Positions 2,805 through 17,319 of a stretch of 21,056 bases of DNA are shown here, in pieces. The notes beneath the pieces were generated by a model. It had not been told where the DNA came from. It did not search any database and was given only the letters and a program-made list of their open reading frames with translations. This stretch comes from a virus. Position 1 is the first letter of the stretch; each line of letters opens with the position of its first letter. Made by a program: the position numbers and the translations under genes. The stretch spans positions 1-21,056 of the IMG/VR virus record IMGVR_UViG_3300032322_001863, one strand, 5' to 3'.

Positions 2805-2865
2805 ATGCTTGCAGCGTGCGAGCCTGGCGGCTGTGTGCGCATGGCCATATGGCCTAGCGTCAAGC

Positions 2866-3060
2866 ATGGGCAATGCCTGGAAGCGCCAGCTCGAGGCAGG
2901 GCTCGAGGCAGGGCTCGAGGCAGGGCTCGAGGCAGGGCTCGAGGCAGGGCTCGAGGCAGGGCTGGAGGCAGGGCTGGAGGCAGGGCTGGAGGCAGGGCTG
3001 GAGGCAGGGCTGGAGGCAGGGCTGGAGGCAGGGCTGGAGAAGGCCAAAAAACACAACTAA
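2866..3060 (+). CDS. Doubtful repeat-encoded peptide (LEAG)n
   Basis: If translated from the ATG at 2866, the minisatellite would give a 64-aa peptide. It would have a basic head MGNAWKRQ, about twelve LEAG tetrapeptides predicted to be helical, and a basic tail KAKKHN. In this frame the single base that separates the two repeat blocks is silent (CTC to CTG, both Leu); this also holds for one minus-strand frame (TCG to TCC, both Ser). There is no good ribosome binding site before the ATG and no obvious operon partner on this strand. I list it so that it is not lost, but think it more likely non-coding. Confidence 0.15.
   Translation: MGNAWKRQLEAGLEAGLEAGLEAGLEAGLEAGLEAGLEAGLEAGLEAGLEAGLEAGLEKAKKHN
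2889..3039. repeat. 12-bp minisatellite, 12 full copies in two blocks
   Basis: Six perfect copies of GCTCGAGGCAGG (2889-2960) are followed by six perfect copies of GCTGGAGGCAGG (2961-3032) and a 7-nt partial copy. The two unit types differ by one base and are cleanly segregated, not interspersed. The period is a multiple of three and the unit has no stop in any of six frames, so all frames stay open. Each unit of the first block holds a CTCGAG palindrome. The G-rich strand of the second block has short GG/GGG runs that could form a two-tetrad quadruplex. Confidence 0.97.
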
Positions 3061-3138
3061 AAGGAAGGGGCAAAATGGGTTTTTCTAGCGTTAGTTGAAT
3101 AGCCAATGATTACAGCGGCTTAGGCAAGGGATGGGCAA

Positions 3139-3265
3139 GATGGGCAATATGGGCAACGGTTTTTAAATCGGTCTGACCTGACAGTGCACTGCAATATAAA
3201 GACTTCCTTATATCGTTATAACTTATCTTTGAAGTCTAAAAAACAGATAACCCATATTGCCCATC
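3139..3265. repeat. 15-bp perfect inverted repeat around an AT-rich stretch
   Basis: GATGGGCAATATGGG at 3139-3153 is matched by its exact reverse complement CCCATATTGCCCATC at 3251-3265. The 97 bp between them are much richer in A and T than the flanking genes (for example the stretch at 3190-3250). The left arm is part of three tandem 9-bp units (GATGGGCAA, GATGGGCAA, TATGGGCAA; 3130-3156). Paired arms around an easily melted stretch, with iteron-like units beside them, fit a replication origin or a protein-bound control site. That function is inference. Confidence 0.75.
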
Positions 3266-3295
3266 ACAGCATGGCATAAGGATTTTAGCCGCTCT

Positions 3296-3331
3296 GGCAA
3301 TGCCCCAAACACTGCCCAGGCAATGCCCCAA
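3296..3331. repeat. Two 13-bp direct repeats GGCAATGCCCCAA
   Basis: Perfect copies lie at 3296-3308 and 3319-3331, with a 23-bp period, close to two turns of the helix. A degenerate relative (ACTGCCCA) sits between them and another (ACCATTACCCCA) follows. They share a GGCAA/TTGCC core with the 9-bp units and the inverted repeat arms about 60-160 bp to the left. This suggests one family of protein-binding sites across the region. Confidence 0.7.
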
Positions 3332-3347
3332 CCATTACCCCAAAAGA

Positions 3348-3373
3348 AAACGGCGGCCATTGGGCCGCCGTTT
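3348..3373 (-). terminator. Intrinsic terminator after the 82-aa minus-strand gene
   Basis: A perfect 11-bp stem, AAACGGCGGCC on the plus strand at 3348-3358 pairing with 3363-3373, with a 4-nt loop (ATTG). Read on the minus strand it is followed by TTTCTTTTG, a usable U-tract. It lies about 40 nt beyond the stop codon at 3416. The plus-strand side has only a short T run, so it should work mainly for minus-strand transcripts and insulate the repeat region and terminase operon from upstream reading. Confidence 0.75.
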
Positions 3374-3378
3374 GTTGA

Positions 3379-3396
3379 CTACACGCTAGCGTGTAG
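3379..3396. promoter_or_regulatory. 18-bp perfect palindrome
   Basis: CTACACGCTAGCGTGTAG equals its own reverse complement. It lies between the terminator hairpin and the stop codon of the 82-aa gene. It could be a dimeric protein-binding site or, as RNA, a second hairpin (nine base pairs without a loop, so effectively shorter). The absence of a T-tract argues against a terminator. Confidence 0.55.
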
Positions 3397-3415
3397 CACG
3401 TCCATTGCCGCGTCG

Positions 3416-3664
3416 TCAAGCGCGCTCAATTGCCTTGAAACGATAGTTCGGTCCGTACACAATCCGCCATTCGTTTCCGCCGGCTGTCCAAACGCGGATG
3501 ACGTCGCCGCGAGACTTCTTTGCCTTGACCGGCGCCGACGTGCCGCGTTTGGCAAATTCGGCGCCGGCCATATAGGCGAGCCAGGCATCGCTTGACCACA
3601 AGTAAGGGTTATCAATGTCGGCCTGCGAGCTGTTATAGCCTTCCATGAATTCCGCCGTCAGCAT
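3416..3664 (-). CDS. Small hypothetical protein, possibly RMF-like
   Basis: An 82-aa protein with a good ribosome site (GAGAGAAG before the ATG at 3664). The N-terminal half, EFMEGYNSSQADIDNPYLW followed by SSDAWLAYMAGAEFAKRG, has the layout of small ribosome-modulation-factor-like proteins: a helix ending in G-Y, an N-P-Y turn, then a W..Y..G helix. The second half is basic and has a V-I-R-V-W...W-R-I-V-Y pattern I do not recognise. The RMF resemblance is weak and by eye. It stands alone as a monocistronic gene, divergent from the plus-strand early operon and closed by its own terminator. That arrangement suits a regulator or an early host-directed factor, by inference. Confidence 0.65.
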   Translation of the reverse strand: MLTAEFMEGYNSSQADIDNPYLWSSDAWLAYMAGAEFAKRGTSAPVKAKKSRGDVIRVWTAGGNEWRIVYGPNYRFKAIERA

Positions 3665-3687
3665 TGCTCTATCTTCTCTCGTTTAGT

Positions 3688-3773
3688 GTTGACAATATGT
3701 GGACAGTCTCATATCTGCGTCATGCTGTCAACTATATTTTGTTGTTGACATAGTGTGGAGGGTATAATATTGT
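3688..3773. promoter_or_regulatory. Divergent control region with three GTTGACA copies
   Basis: The 139 bp between divergent genes (3664 and 3804) hold GTTGACA in direct orientation at 3688-3694 and 3744-3750 and inverted (TGTCAAC) at 3726-3732. The two direct copies extend to GTTGACAATATGTGGACAG and GTTGACATAGTGTGGAGGG. As plus-strand promoters they read TTGACA-N17-TATCTG (3689-3717) and TTGACA-N17-TATTGT (3745-3773). A consensus-like TATAAT (3763-3768) also occurs but only 12 bp from the nearest -35. The inverted copy could serve a minus-strand promoter or be an operator half-site. Confidence 0.55.
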
Positions 3774-3803
3774 TCGGGCGTCATCAACAAGAAAGGAAAC
3801 GAC

Positions 3804-3995
3804 ATGGAAGCCCTAATCGCCAAAGTCCAAGCCAAACGCCTAGCAGCTGGCCTAGTGGTCAGCTTCGACCGTGAAACACCGGAAGAAACAGTTGCCTATG
3901 GCCGCGCTACTCACGCATTTGCCAGCGTCAAGGACCGTGACGAAAAGATTGACGTTTGGACGTGGCTCGGTCGCAATCCGCGAATTGAGCAATAG
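3804..3995 (+). CDS. Small hypothetical protein, first gene of the early operon
   Basis: A 63-aa acidic protein (MEALIAKVQAKRLAAGL then VVSFDRETPEETVAYGRA). It has a strong ribosome site, AAAGGAAA, 6 nt before the ATG, within the leader GAAAGGAAACGACATG that recurs almost unchanged before the clamp-like gene at 4436. I recognise no family or motif. The N-terminus should form a helix and the rest a compact alpha-beta fold by its hydrophobic pattern, but this is only impression. It is the first gene after the promoter region and likely made early. Confidence 0.7.
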   Translation: MEALIAKVQAKRLAAGLVVSFDRETPEETVAYGRATHAFASVKDRDEKIDVWTWLGRNPRIEQ

Positions 3996-4011
3996 CGATT
4001 AGGATCTAGCC

Positions 4012-4033
4012 AACGGGCGGCTAGCCGCCCGTT
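4012..4033 (+). terminator. 22-bp perfect GC-rich palindrome between genes
   Basis: Arms AACGGGCGGC and GCCGCCCGTT meet with only TA between them. There is no T-tract, so as an intrinsic terminator it is poor; it could attenuate transcription or protect and define mRNA ends. The stem core GGGCGGC recurs in hairpins at 5020 and 7001. Confidence 0.45.
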
Positions 4034-4055
4034 CACTAGACCCTAGTAAACTCAA
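4033..4055 (+). promoter_or_regulatory. Repeated ACTAG-N3-CTAGT leader motif, copy 1
   Basis: TCACTAGACCCTAGTAAACTCAA lies just after the hairpin and 15 nt before the start of the 96-aa gene. Apart from one substitution and a 2-nt indel it is identical to 4392-4416, which precedes the next gene. The 5-bp arms ACTAG/CTAGT are inverted around ACC. It may be a promoter -10 region, an operator or an mRNA structure; the sequence does not decide. Confidence 0.5.
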
Positions 4056-4069
4056 TTGGAGACGACACC

Positions 4070-4360
4070 ATGACCCATGAAGAATTCCCCGGCGAATATG
4101 CGCAAATCAGGGCGGAATATGCCGAGTACCAGCGCCGCGCGAGCAATATTCTCGTCTGGGCGCAGGCTCAGTACGCGGCCGGAACAATGACCGTGGCGCA
4201 GATAAAGCGCCGGGTTGACGCCATGTTTGACGCGCTTGACGCCGACTACATGAGCCCAGGCATCGAACGGGTGCAAACGCGCGCGGATGTCGATGCCAAC
4301 GATGACGGTCCGTATCCCGGCTGGCCGTCCGAGCAATCGGCCGTGCAGTATAATTGGTAG
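4070..4360 (+). CDS. Hypothetical helical protein
   Basis: A 96-aa acidic protein (MTHEEFPGEYAQIRAEYAEY...), mainly helical by composition, ending in a disordered-looking GPYPGWPSEQSAVQYNW tail. Its ribosome site is GGAGA, 7 nt before the ATG, inside a leader (GAGACGACACC) related to those of the genes before and after it. No family is recognised. The 70-100 bp spacers on both sides carry hairpins and the ACTAG-N3-CTAGT motif, so the gene may have its own transcription start rather than being tightly co-translated. Confidence 0.7.
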   Translation: MTHEEFPGEYAQIRAEYAEYQRRASNILVWAQAQYAAGTMTVAQIKRRVDAMFDALDADYMSPGIERVQTRADVDANDDGPYPGWPSEQSAVQYNW

Positions 4361-4370
4361 GACCTAGACG

Positions 4371-4391
4371 GCCGCCGGCAAGCCCGGCGGC
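4371..4391 (+). terminator. GC-rich hairpin after the 96-aa gene
   Basis: An 8-bp perfect stem (GCCGCCGG with CCGGCGGC) and a 5-nt loop CAAGC. It sits 10 nt after the stop codon and just before the second ACTAG-N3-CTAGT motif. There is no T-tract. Its position repeats the pattern gene, hairpin, motif, leader, gene seen at 3995-4070. Confidence 0.45.
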
Positions 4392-4416
4392 TCACTAGTC
4401 CCTAGTCTAAACTCAA
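4392..4416 (+). promoter_or_regulatory. Repeated ACTAG-N3-CTAGT leader motif, copy 2
   Basis: TCACTAGTCCCTAGTC followed by TAAACTCAA, the second copy of the motif at 4033-4055, here 19 nt before the clamp-like gene. The leader that follows (GAAAGGAAACGACACT) also matches the one before 3804. Repetition at the same place before two genes argues that it is a functional control element. Confidence 0.5.
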
Positions 4417-4435
4417 ACCGAAAGGAAACGACACT

Positions 4436-5005
4436 ATGCTTATCGCAACGGATCTACTCAAGGCCGCGTTGCTTTGCGCCTCGCAGGAAGAAACGCGCTA
4501 TTACTTGCGCGGTGTGTTCCTGTCCACGTCCGGTCACTTGGTGACCACTGATGGCCACCGGATGTTTGTCGCCCGTCTTAACGAGCGGCCGGCCGCTGAC
4601 GTCATCGTACCCTATGCCGACGTGCAAGCGGCGCTCAAGCTGGCCGGCGCGCGCGCGAAAGACATTGACGTGACGGCCGACCGTATCGGGCAAATTGCCT
4701 ATACGCCGGTTGACGGTACCTTCCCGAACTGGCGCAACGTCGTGCCGACGGGCGAAGAAACGCCCGCAAAGGACAAGACGGAGGATCTTCCCGGTAACGT
4801 TCATTTCAACCACGTCTACATCGGCGATTTGGCGAAGATGGGCAAGATCCTTGGCGGATCTTCCACGCTGCACCCTGTTACGGCAAGCAATCCCGCCTTG
4901 GTGACGTTTGGTGATCGCGCGGATTGTTTCGGCGTCCTTATGCCGATGCGCCGCACGATTGACCGCAGCGCCGTCCTCACGCGCAATAGCGTGATGGCAG
5001 GCTGA
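4436..5005 (+). CDS. Shortened beta sliding clamp-like protein
   Basis: A 189-aa protein that resembles the middle and last domains of the bacterial beta clamp (DnaN, about 370 aa), which tethers DNA polymerase to DNA. Residues 20-46 (RYYLRGVFLS...GHLVTTDGHRMFVA) match the RYYLNG...ATDGHR block of clamp domain 2. Residues 57-104 (VIVPYADV...DGTFPNWRNVVP) match its IVP...DG.FPDY..V.P block. Residues 155-172 (ALVTFGDRADCFGVLMPMR) match the end of domain 3, where MPMR lines the partner-binding pocket. Domain 1 is missing and a 17-aa tail follows. Whether it forms a ring, blocks the host clamp or serves the phage polymerase is open. Strong ribosome site AAAGGAAA. Confidence 0.75.
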   Translation: MLIATDLLKAALLCASQEETRYYLRGVFLSTSGHLVTTDGHRMFVARLNERPAADVIVPYADVQAALKLAGARAKDIDVTADRIGQIAYTPVDGTFPNWRNVVPTGEETPAKDKTEDLPGNVHFNHVYIGDLAKMGKILGGSSTLHPVTASNPALVTFGDRADCFGVLMPMRRTIDRSAVLTRNSVMAG

Positions 5006-14721: not shown

Positions 14722-15036
14722 ATGGGCGCTGAAAGACAGATCGAGAAGTACTTCGTGGAGACGGTCGCGCGCATGGGCGGGACGGCGTACAAGTTCACGT
14801 CGCCCGCCCACCGCGGCGTCAGCGACCGCATCGCCTGCCTGCCGGGCGGCGCGGTGTGGTTCGTGGAACTGAAAGCCCCCGGCGGGCGGCTGTCGCCGCT
14901 CCAGAAGCTCTTCGCGGCCCGCATGAAGGAACTCGGACAGAACTACACGACACTATGGTCAAAAACGGAGATAGACGAATGGCGGCATACTATAACGAGT
15001 TCGACCCCTACGCAGCCCAATGGCTGCGCAACCTGA
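14722..15036 (+). CDS. VRR-NUC domain nuclease
   Basis: A 104-aa protein that is almost only a VRR-NUC domain, a PD-(D/E)XK-fold nuclease. An N-terminal helix with Glu8 (RQIEKYFVETV) is followed by GVSDRIACLPGG (catalytic Asp), VWFVELKAPGG (E-x-K) and RLSPLQKLFAARMKELG (Gln). Stand-alone VRR-NUC proteins are frequent in phages and may act on branched DNA; the substrate here is unknown. It is the first gene of the rightward operon, divergent from the other PD-(D/E)XK nuclease. Its last 58 nt overlap the methyltransferase start, and its C-terminal 20 residues look unstructured. Confidence 0.9.
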   Translation: MGAERQIEKYFVETVARMGGTAYKFTSPAHRGVSDRIACLPGGAVWFVELKAPGGRLSPLQKLFAARMKELGQNYTTLWSKTEIDEWRHTITSSTPTQPNGCAT

Positions 15037-16031
15037 TCGACAGTAAACTGATAGCGGAAGGTGACGTAGATGACAGATCAATTCGGGACGTGGCTCCGGG
15101 CGACCTCAAAGGCTACACCCAGTGCCACTTCTTCGCCGGTATCGGCGTCTGGTCCCACGCCCTCCGTCTCGCAGGATGGCCTGACGACCGGCCCGTCTGG
15201 ACCGGCTCTTGCCCTTGCCAGCCCTTCAGCGCCGCCGGAAAGGGAGCAGGATTTGCCGACGAGCGTCACCTCTGGCCTGAGTTCTATCGCCTCATTGCAG
15301 AGTGCCGCCCTCCAGTTGTCTTTGGAGAGCAGGTTGCGAGCAAGGACGGCCTCGCTTGGCTCGACACTGTACAGTCTGACATGGAAGCATCGGGCTACGC
15401 CATTGGGGCGGCAGATCTGTGCGCTGCGGGCGTCGGCGCCCCGCATATCCGCCAGCGCCTCTGGTTTGTCGGAGAGCGGCCGGGCCACGCCGACCGTCCA
15501 CGACACGAAGGGCACGGACTACAACCGCTACTCGGAAGCGGGGAAGGGCGAGGGCAGATCGGGGGCACTACAAGATCAGGCGCAACTGGCGGGCTGGGTC
15601 ACCACCACCACCAGGGACTGGAAGGACAGCGGCGTGGACATCAGGCCGAGGGAGGACGGCTCGGAGCGGTACGACCAGTTGCCGAGACAGGCCAATCTAA
15701 CGGGCTGGCCGACACCGACCAAGGGAAACGCAGACGGTTCGCAGATGGCGAAGGACGCCAGCCCGACTGGTCGCAGGCCGGATGGCAGCAAGGCGACGGT
15801 AAGCCTCAATCAAGTGGCTCAACAAGCAGGCCCCGCCCGACTAACGGCCACTGGCGATCTGCTGACTGGCTCCACTGCCGCGATGGAAAGTGGCGGCCAG
15901 TTGAACCCGGCACATTCCCGCTGGCTCATGGGGCTCCCGCCCGAGTGGGACGCCTGCGCGCCTACGGCAATGCCATCGTCCCGCAAGCAGCGGCCGAAGT
16001 GATAGGAGCCTACCTTGACGCTCGCCCTTAG
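14979..16031 (+). CDS. C5 cytosine DNA methyltransferase
   Basis: A 350-aa enzyme that transfers methyl from SAM to cytosine C5. Motif I is FFAGIG (51-56), motif [11 protein letters not shown] (77-84; catalytic Cys80), motif VI GEQV (116-119, Gln replacing the usual Asn), motif [11 protein letters not shown] (159-165) and motif X AYGNAIVP (328-335). Between VIII and X lies a Gly/Gln/Arg-rich region of about 120 residues where target recognition would sit. The start ATG at 14979 has ribosome site ACGGAGAT. From 15070 on, the +1 frame holds a second long gene, so the low-complexity look of the recognition region may reflect dual coding. Likely role: protection from host restriction. Confidence 0.92.
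15070..16002 (+). CDS. Gene nested in the +1 frame of the methyltransferase
   Basis: A 310-aa open frame wholly inside the methyltransferase gene, with its own start and ribosome site (GAAGGTGA before the ATG). The first 130 residues are Ser/Ala/Thr/Pro-rich. The second part holds [49 protein letters not shown] and a C-terminal [20 protein letters not shown] then PTAMPSSRK. From memory, these blocks are strongly conserved in many prophage proteins, often annotated as hypothetical or as methyltransferase parts. The host frame is also conserved, up to motif X at its end. No function is known. Repeated G-W-x-T-P-T modules hint at a modular binding protein. Confidence 0.72.
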
Positions 16032-17319
16032 ACCATACCAGAACGACGCTGTGACGTTCCTCTACGAGCGTGACCGCGCCATGATCCTGGCCCCTGTGGG
16101 CGCCGGCAAGACCGCCATCACGCTGCGGGCCATGGCCGAGATGAAGCGGGACGGTCACGCCAAGCGGTGGCTGGTGGTGGCGCCCAAGCGTGTGTGCACC
16201 GACGTGTGGCCGGTCGAGGTCAAGAAGTGGGCACCCGACCTGACCATGGCTGTCGCCATCGGCAACGCCGCCCAGCGCAAGGTGGCGTTTGCGGCCAAGG
16301 TGAACATCGTCGTGTTCAACTACGACAACCTCGACAAGATGCCCGAGGGCGACTTCGACGGCATCGTCTTCGACGAACTGACCCGGCTCAAAAACCCGTC
16401 CGGCCTGCGCTTCAAGGCGCTGGCCAAGGTGCTGGACCGCTTCAAGGTGCGCTGGGGTCTTACGGGCTCGTTCACCTCCAACGGGTTGGAGGATGTGTTC
16501 GGCCAGTGCAAGGTGATTGACGAGAAGCTGCTGGGCCGGGCCAAAGGTGCGTTCCTGCAGCAGTACTTTGTGTGCATGAACCGGGACTTTGGCGACTGGG
16601 CTCCGCGGCGCGGTGCGCTGGAGCAGATCATGACCCGCATCCGCCCGGCGACGTTCGTGCTTGAGCCTGGCGTCTATAAGGACAAGCTGCCGCCGTGCCA
16701 TGTGGTCGAGATGCGCTGCGACCTGCCTGACCGCGAGCCATACGAGAAGATGAAGAAGGAGTTCGTGGTCGAGATGCAGGGCAAGGAGATCAGCGCGCCG
16801 TCGGCCGCCGCGGTCACGACCAAACTGCAGCAGATGGCCGGCGGCTGGGTCTATGCCGAGGATCGGCGCCCGTCATGGTATTCGACGCACCGCTTCGACC
16901 TGCTGGACGAGGTGCTGGACGGCAACCAGCGGGCCAATACGCTGATCGTCTACAACTTCGTCGAGGAGTTGGCGGAACTGAAGCGCCGCTATCCCGGCAA
17001 GCTCTGGACGCTGGACGACGGCGCCGACGTCATCGAACGCTGGAACGCAGGCAAGATCCCGCTGCTGGCGGTCCATCCCAAGTCGGCGGGGCACGGCCTC
17101 AACCTGCAACACGGCGGCCATCACCTGGTGTTCCTGTCGCTGCCGTGGTCGCTGGAACTCTACGAGCAGGTGGTTGGCCGGCTGCACCGCAGCGGGCAGG
17201 AGCGCGACGTGTGGGTCTACGTCCTGCTCACGAACAAGACCATCGACGAGCGCATCTGGGCGGCCCTTGCCGACAAGCGCGCCATATCGGATATTGCACT
17301 GGAGGAGTTGAAAGGATGA
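16015..17319 (+). CDS. SNF2-like superfamily 2 helicase
   Basis: A 434-aa ATPase. It has an N-terminal RPYQNDAV Q-motif-like segment, Walker A APVGAGKT (26-33), motif II VFDELTRLKN (118-127, D-E-L-T instead of D-E-A-H), motif III LTGS (149-152), motif V SAGHGLNLQ (357-365) and motif VI QVVGRLHRSGQ (385-395). This is the compact phage form without accessory domains; it probably translocates on duplex DNA during replication or recombination. It starts at TTG 16015 with an AGGAG ribosome site 6 nt upstream; starting at the next ATG would cut off the N-terminal motif. It overlaps the methyltransferase end by 17 nt. Confidence 0.93.
   Translation: MTLALRPYQNDAVTFLYERDRAMILAPVGAGKTAITLRAMAEMKRDGHAKRWLVVAPKRVCTDVWPVEVKKWAPDLTMAVAIGNAAQRKVAFAAKVNIVVFNYDNLDKMPEGDFDGIVFDELTRLKNPSGLRFKALAKVLDRFKVRWGLTGSFTSNGLEDVFGQCKVIDEKLLGRAKGAFLQQYFVCMNRDFGDWAPRRGALEQIMTRIRPATFVLEPGVYKDKLPPCHVVEMRCDLPDREPYEKMKKEFVVEMQGKEISAPSAAAVTTKLQQMAGGWVYAEDRRPSWYSTHRFDLLDEVLDGNQRANTLIVYNFVEELAELKRRYPGKLWTLDDGADVIERWNAGKIPLLAVHPKSAGHGLNLQHGGHHLVFLSLPWSLELYEQVVGRLHRSGQERDVWVYVLLTNKTIDERIWAALADKRAISDIALEELKG

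Follow-up and report, generated by a model that had tools for sequence, protein, structure and literature searches.

A stretch of 21,056 bases from a virus record of IMG/VR (IMGVR_UViG_3300032322_001863), referred to here in its entirety as the window, contains a gene for a C5-cytosine methyltransferase (alpha, the host frame) that harbours a second open reading frame, beta. The latter opens with an ATG, runs for 310 codons in the +1 frame and lies wholly inside the alpha gene. Does this DNA really encode two conserved proteins and, if so, what does the nested one do? The first-pass annotation had taken both frames for genuine conserved genes, the inner one having its own ribosome site, and had considered that its product might be a partner or an inhibitor of the methyltransferase, or an anti-restriction factor. 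The nested frame, the ribosome site and all the peptides it quoted are indeed present in the window (Table 1). The comparisons described below make it very likely that the two subunits of a bipartite C5-cytosine methyltransferase are read from the same piece of DNA, alpha being the catalytic chain and beta carrying the target-recognition domain (TRD) and motif IX, since beta matches the TRD and motif IX region of single-chain enzymes while the corresponding alpha segment does not.

The start of alpha is better placed at ATG 14979, preceded by a GGAG sequence, than at the mechanically listed GTG 14856; in an alignment of relatives, it is ATG 14979 that yields the conserved N-terminus of the family. 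The surroundings of the pair form a phage replication module, with genes for DUF2800/PD-(D/E)XK, DNA polymerase A, DUF5906/primase and SNF2 helicase proteins. Directly upstream, a 104-residue open reading frame (14722-15036), with no Pfam match, extends into the first codons of alpha, in a different frame.

Table 1. Features of the alpha/beta locus (positions are those of the window)
Feature	Position	Strand	Basis
Alpha: C5-cytosine methyltransferase catalytic chain, 350 aa, motifs I-VIII and X, without motif IX	14979..16031	+	PF00145, phrog_363, HhaI profile alignment, AF2 and Foldseek
Alpha ribosome site GGAG (likely)	14967..14970	+	sequence
Beta: nested +1-frame gene, 310 aa, probable target-recognition cassettes and motif IX	15070..16002	+	phrog_31772, phrog_1008; dual-frame selection; homology to single-chain TRD and motif IX
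Beta ribosome site AAGGTGA, 5 nt upstream of the beta ATG	15058..15064	+	sequence; SD and ATG kept in relatives
Alpha motif I, FFAGIG region	15129..15146	+	invariant columns, alpha alignment A2
Alpha motif IV, PCQPFS, including the catalytic Cys	15213..15230	+	invariant columns, alpha alignment A2; HhaI alignment
Alpha motif VI, GEQV (ENV-type motif)	15324..15335	+	invariant columns, alpha alignment A2; aligns with HhaI ENV
Alpha motif VIII, HIRQRLW	15444..15464	+	invariant or near-invariant columns, alpha alignment A2
Alpha motif X, YGNAIV	15963..15980	+	YGN invariant in alpha alignment A2; confident C-terminal helix just downstream in AF2 model
Beta conserved N-terminal block, predicted helix and two strands	15289..15447	+	beta alignment A1; pLDDT about 80; constraint in segment A2
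Beta TRD-like cassette 1	15478..15591	+	beta alignment A1; same cassette type in other loci
Beta TRD-like cassette 2	15592..15702	+	same type in 29 loci, ordinal positions 1-4
Beta TRD-like cassette 3	15703..15831	+	same type in other loci at different ordinal positions
Beta motif IX block	15901..15951	+	near-invariant in beta alignment A1; aligns with single-chain LAPAFSEWMMGWPAGW
SNF2-type helicase gene, overlapping the alpha 3' end; context, outside the enzyme	16015..17319	+	PF00176, E 2e-17

Alpha matches PF00145 (E 6e-15) and phrog_363 (E 3e-86). Beta matches phrog_31772 (E 5e-38) and phrog_1008 (E 4e-29), with no match in Pfam, NCBIfam or PADLOC. The earlier statement that the nested protein is widely annotated as hypothetical was only partly right: both PHROGs are labelled 'DNA methyltransferase', and for phages K1ind2 and Jacopo the two overlapping genes are both annotated in the records. 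These two nested-frame families bear that label, yet they have no catalytic motif, just the recognition and motif IX half. Within the open-access part of the literature, no paper on this phage family was found, and the name 'Mte8-like' gave no lead.

The two frames travel together. When alpha and beta were used as separate queries against viral contigs, the nested frame was found at the same phase in 156 of 156 loci, 76 of them new loci picked by the host frame; these were the best-scoring loci, so that the sample may contain too few divergent members lacking a nested frame. In almost all of the 156 the nested frame is open across nearly the whole overlap. A scan of bacterial genomes added 80 prophage loci, mostly in Proteobacteria, with both frames in the same register in every one of the 80; within the Enterobacteriaceae, 21 of 295 genomes carry the pair. 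Relatives include phages N15, K1ind2, eiAU and Erwinia 59 and the Paenibacillus phage Jacopo.

Judged by the sequences of 209 relatives, both frames are under purifying selection. In synonymous shuffles of the window's host gene, a +1 frame as long as the real one arose in just 1 of 200, and most of 65 de-duplicated relatives show a similar or stronger length excess. Over the same 65 genes, the +1 frame contains on average 2.75 stops versus 4.92 expected from synonymous shuffles, while the +2 frame, serving as control, shows no depletion (14.8 versus 13.4). The divergence of host third codon positions is 0.57 before the overlap, then 0.50, 0.36 and, in the C-terminal overlap, 0.22, and rises to 0.65 once the nested frame has ended. 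In the variable middle of the overlap the usual order is even reversed, first positions diverging more than third ones (0.51 versus 0.45), which is taken as a sign that another frame is being read as a gene. The comparison of codon positions that the first-pass annotation had suggested thus reveals constraint in both frames, and neither of the patterns that it named as contrary to its claim, nested stops at chance level or constraint in one frame only, was encountered.

Substitutions between close relatives were then classed by their effect in both frames, the overlap being divided into segments A1, A2, B and C and the host-only part of the gene serving as control. In segment B, changes that are nonsynonymous in alpha and synonymous in beta reach 2.25, versus 0.39 for those altering both proteins; in segment A2 the corresponding values are 1.07 and 0.16. 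Indeed, a host-nonsynonymous change is 6 to 7 times commoner throughout A2, B and C when it is synonymous in the nested frame, whereas in the host-only control the nested effect is irrelevant (0.17 versus 0.27). Among these close relatives, host-silent changes that create a nested stop number 0 in A1, A2, B and C versus 11 of 270 in the control; pairs of 65-80% identity do show a few, most of them close to where the overlap begins or ends.

The start codon and ribosome site of beta, whose conservation at 15070 had also been proposed for comparison, are under selection by the same kind of evidence. A Shine-Dalgarno sequence with an ATG is found near the nested start in 58 of the 65 relatives versus 17.4 expected (maximum 26 in 100 trials). 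In addition, an Arg-Ser pair in the host protein is spelled AGG-AGN only where the ATG follows (17/17 versus 16/43; p 4e-6, a value inflated somewhat by the relatedness of the genes).

These results bear directly on the idea that the nested frame is a mere by-product of how the host gene uses codons and of its GC content, with no functional protein made from it. Long open +1 frames are typical of high-GC genes, in some loci up to about 12% of the synonymous shuffles reach similar lengths, and a +1 frame inherits some similarity from a conserved host protein. However, the substitution classes, the avoidance of stops and the selection on the start site contradict this idea, and they rule out an open frame due to chance or GC content. 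Moreover, the +1 excess is extreme in nested genes of the Paenibacillus type, whose GC content is 44-59%, extreme +1 frames being seen at 44-53%; as a negative control, single-chain relatives were examined, and most of them show no such excess (L172 and L174/L175 do); in segment B, beta is even more constrained than alpha. That the nested frame is such a by-product is hardly credible.

What alpha contains, and what it lacks, gives a first indication of the role of its partner. The catalytic motifs I, IV (PCQ), VI and VIII of C5 methyltransferases are all found in alpha, as indicated by the PF00145 match, the HhaI alignment and the invariant columns of the family alignment. Residues 72-175 of HhaI align with alpha by profile, and a Foldseek search with the AF2 model of alpha returned HhaI and HaeIII over the catalytic part (E about 1e-7). 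In this model residues 1-175 are mostly confident, residues 178-327 or so have a pLDDT below 50, and the C-terminal helix of motif X is again confident. Canonical monomers have a TRD and motif IX between motifs VIII and X of the same chain, and alpha has neither there. Its VIII-X segment is predicted to be disordered, bears no resemblance to a target-recognition domain and does not match the TRD and motif IX region of single chains (E 0.48). The first-pass annotation had considered that the overlap explains why the target-recognition region of the enzyme looks of low complexity. The overlap does account for the look of the host frame, but the region is not the host's TRD, which by homology lies in the nested protein.

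Beta consists of a conserved N-terminal block, tandem modules of the form GWPTPxxxD...L and a motif IX-like block, in that order (beta alignment A1). The window's beta has three TRD-like cassettes; elsewhere, automatic counting gave none to five. In profile comparisons, beta matches the TRD and motif IX region of single-chain enzymes of the mycobacteriophage type with an E value of 3e-7, and Paenibacillus-type beta matches it at 5e-14; for reference, beta against beta gives 2e-15. The same division of motifs recurs in the family: among 151 classified group-A loci, 143 have motif IX in the +1 frame and motif X in alpha, 2 are classed otherwise and 6 are without the IX/X pair; the Paenibacillus query gave 22 loci with IX in the +1 frame and X in alpha; and the actinophage query gave 12 with IX and X in one chain and 8 with both on an overlapping second gene, it being understood that the survey left 75 loci without a motif match and 52 without an IX/X pair, and that many loci of the latter two queries are unclassifiable. 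Beta is thus most likely, as far as homology can tell, the missing small-domain half of the enzyme, made of target-recognition cassettes and the motif IX that alpha lacks.

The cassettes themselves point in the same direction. When 192 modules were grouped into 70 clusters, the ordinal position of a given cassette type was found to vary between loci, from 1 to 4 or 5, which is what one would expect if target-recognition domains are exchanged. Single chains have nothing that corresponds to the N-terminal block (segment A2), which is possibly the part that binds alpha. This block is also the sole part with a pLDDT of about 80 in the AF2 model of beta alone, a model that is poor as a whole (pLDDT 55, pTM 0.23) and, for this reason, unfit for a fold search. 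A comparison of the beta profile with the sequences of solved structures gave chance matches alone, among them no solved methyltransferase. On three contigs (L256, L317 and L320, two of which gave identical results), motifs I-VIII, TRD-like cassettes and motif IX are fused in one open reading frame, with motif X in the other frame.

Two other readings of a genuine beta protein have to be weighed. It might act independently as an effector, inhibiting its own or the host's methyltransferases or counteracting restriction; its place in a phage replication module, its separate start and the absence of a known homologue of segment A2 would be in keeping with this. But motif IX and the cassettes of beta are homologous to parts of single-chain enzymes, and exactly to those that alpha lacks; furthermore, no standalone nested gene, that is, beta without the alpha frame, was found among the 156 viral and 80 prophage loci. 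Of the roles first envisaged, that of a partner therefore fits, since beta carries the cassettes and motif IX, and the other two do not: an independent effector is highly improbable, and very probably the nested protein is not an inhibitor. Alternatively, a programmed frameshift near motif VIII, rather than internal initiation, could produce a fused I-VIII-TRD-IX chain, a type of protein of which the three natural in-frame fusions offer examples. Constraint on the beta frame upstream of the junction, in segment A2, and a selected internal Shine-Dalgarno sequence and ATG would then be pointless, and an unsystematic search identified no shift site. We consider a frameshift very unlikely.

A split C5 methyltransferase has precedents. 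M.EcoHK31I (YGGCCR) and, beside it, M.EaeI are presumably the closest two-polypeptide enzymes. Lee, Kam and Shaw reportedly found in 1995 that the beta gene of M.EcoHK31I lies in another frame within its alpha gene, both chains being needed in vitro. The larger polypeptide of M.EcoHK31I carries motifs I-VIII and X and the predicted TRD, and the smaller one motif IX (PMC3404938). The first-pass statement that no role is described for such a nested protein was thus somewhat inaccurate: M.EcoHK31I, a C5 methyltransferase of two polypeptides, has been published, and the principle of a split enzyme is already known from it. Similarly, the window's alpha has motifs I-VIII and X without IX, and motif IX is on the smaller, other-frame polypeptide. 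The two systems differ in several respects: the predicted TRD is on the large subunit of M.EcoHK31I, while here the TRD-like cassettes, 1-5 in number, are by homology on the nested beta; the window's pair is phage-borne, and no restriction enzyme was noticed in a Pfam scan of the window; and the present family has several, shuffled cassettes and a wide distribution among phages. When M.EcoHK31I was sought on plasmids, the candidates were single-chain enzymes or RM-linked single-chain enzymes.

Enzymes of the M.AquI type also consist of two polypeptides, with the TRD and motif IX on the second chain, but this chain carries motif X as well and the genes overlap only slightly, whereas here X is in alpha and beta is wholly nested. 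An M.AquI-like arrangement, in which a second, overlapping gene carries the TRD, IX and X, is seen in mycobacteriophage WalterMcMickey (gp78/gp77, L163) and in 8 loci of the actinophage query. Single chains such as gp70 of mycobacteriophage ShiLan (L162), which has motifs I-VIII, LPTPxxxD repeats, a motif IX of the form LAPAFSEWMMGWPAGW and motif X, share the motifs, the TRD-like cassettes and the form of motif IX with the window's pair; they differ in having all parts in one frame and, mostly, no exceptional +1 frame. Tandem TRDs are also a feature of the multispecific methyltransferases of Bacillus phages SPR, phi3T and rho11s, which are monomeric, read in a single frame and of proven multispecificity. 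The three TRD-like cassettes of the window's beta resemble them in this respect, as far as the sequence goes. The multispecific phage class is mentioned in a paper that also deals with M.BatI, a C5 methyltransferase encoded by a prophage; its TRD region is reported to be unusually short and its toxicity to be independent of methylation (PMC8936443).

According to the bipartite model, the large domain with the catalytic motifs I-VIII would come from alpha, as would motif X, the two being joined by an unstructured linker. Beta would be translated in the +1 frame by ribosomes that initiate on their own at the internal ATG, and would supply in trans the tandem cassettes and motif IX, parts that monomers have in cis between VIII and X. 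We infer that the two chains assemble, that both are needed for a working enzyme and that this enzyme methylates DNA at a target set by beta. Phage methyltransferase genes of this kind usually serve to protect phage DNA from host restriction, and this would be the presumed role here too. As to origin, one possibility is that the TRD and motif IX segment was moved into the +1 frame by two compensating shifts, since actinophage relatives have the same parts in one frame. We also lean slightly towards the view that the specificity of the family, encoded in the overlapping frame, evolves by cassette swapping, modules recombining between loci even though each would have to serve as a TRD when read in +1 and as an open linker when read in the host frame.

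What is new with respect to M.EcoHK31I is the scale, the presence of TRD-like cassettes in the overlapping frame and their shuffling between loci, and the demonstration of dual-frame selection. Among nested gene pairs on the same strand in phages, alpha/beta appears to rank with the longer and more widespread ones, and it comes with a definite functional hypothesis, namely that both readings make parts of the same enzyme. This suggests that many phage 'DNA cytosine methyltransferase' genes are read as one protein while their specificity half is in the other frame. In such cases, the annotated protein would not allow the specificity to be predicted, and a recoded (codon-optimised) gene used for cloning would no longer encode the second subunit. 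The locus also offers a testable model for the origin of overlapping genes, in which a domain is pushed out of frame and supplied in trans.

A few loci depart from the common arrangement. The host frame is interrupted by stops while the nested one is open in L020, L136/L137, L340 and L379, where sequencing error, decay or a split alpha are possible; the reverse, an interrupted nested frame within an intact host frame, is seen in L142. Finally, in a Pseudodesulfovibrio metagenome-assembled genome (L347, about 2849-4754), two alpha and two nested matches were obtained, and two alpha/beta pairs appear to lie adjacent to each other in one prophage.
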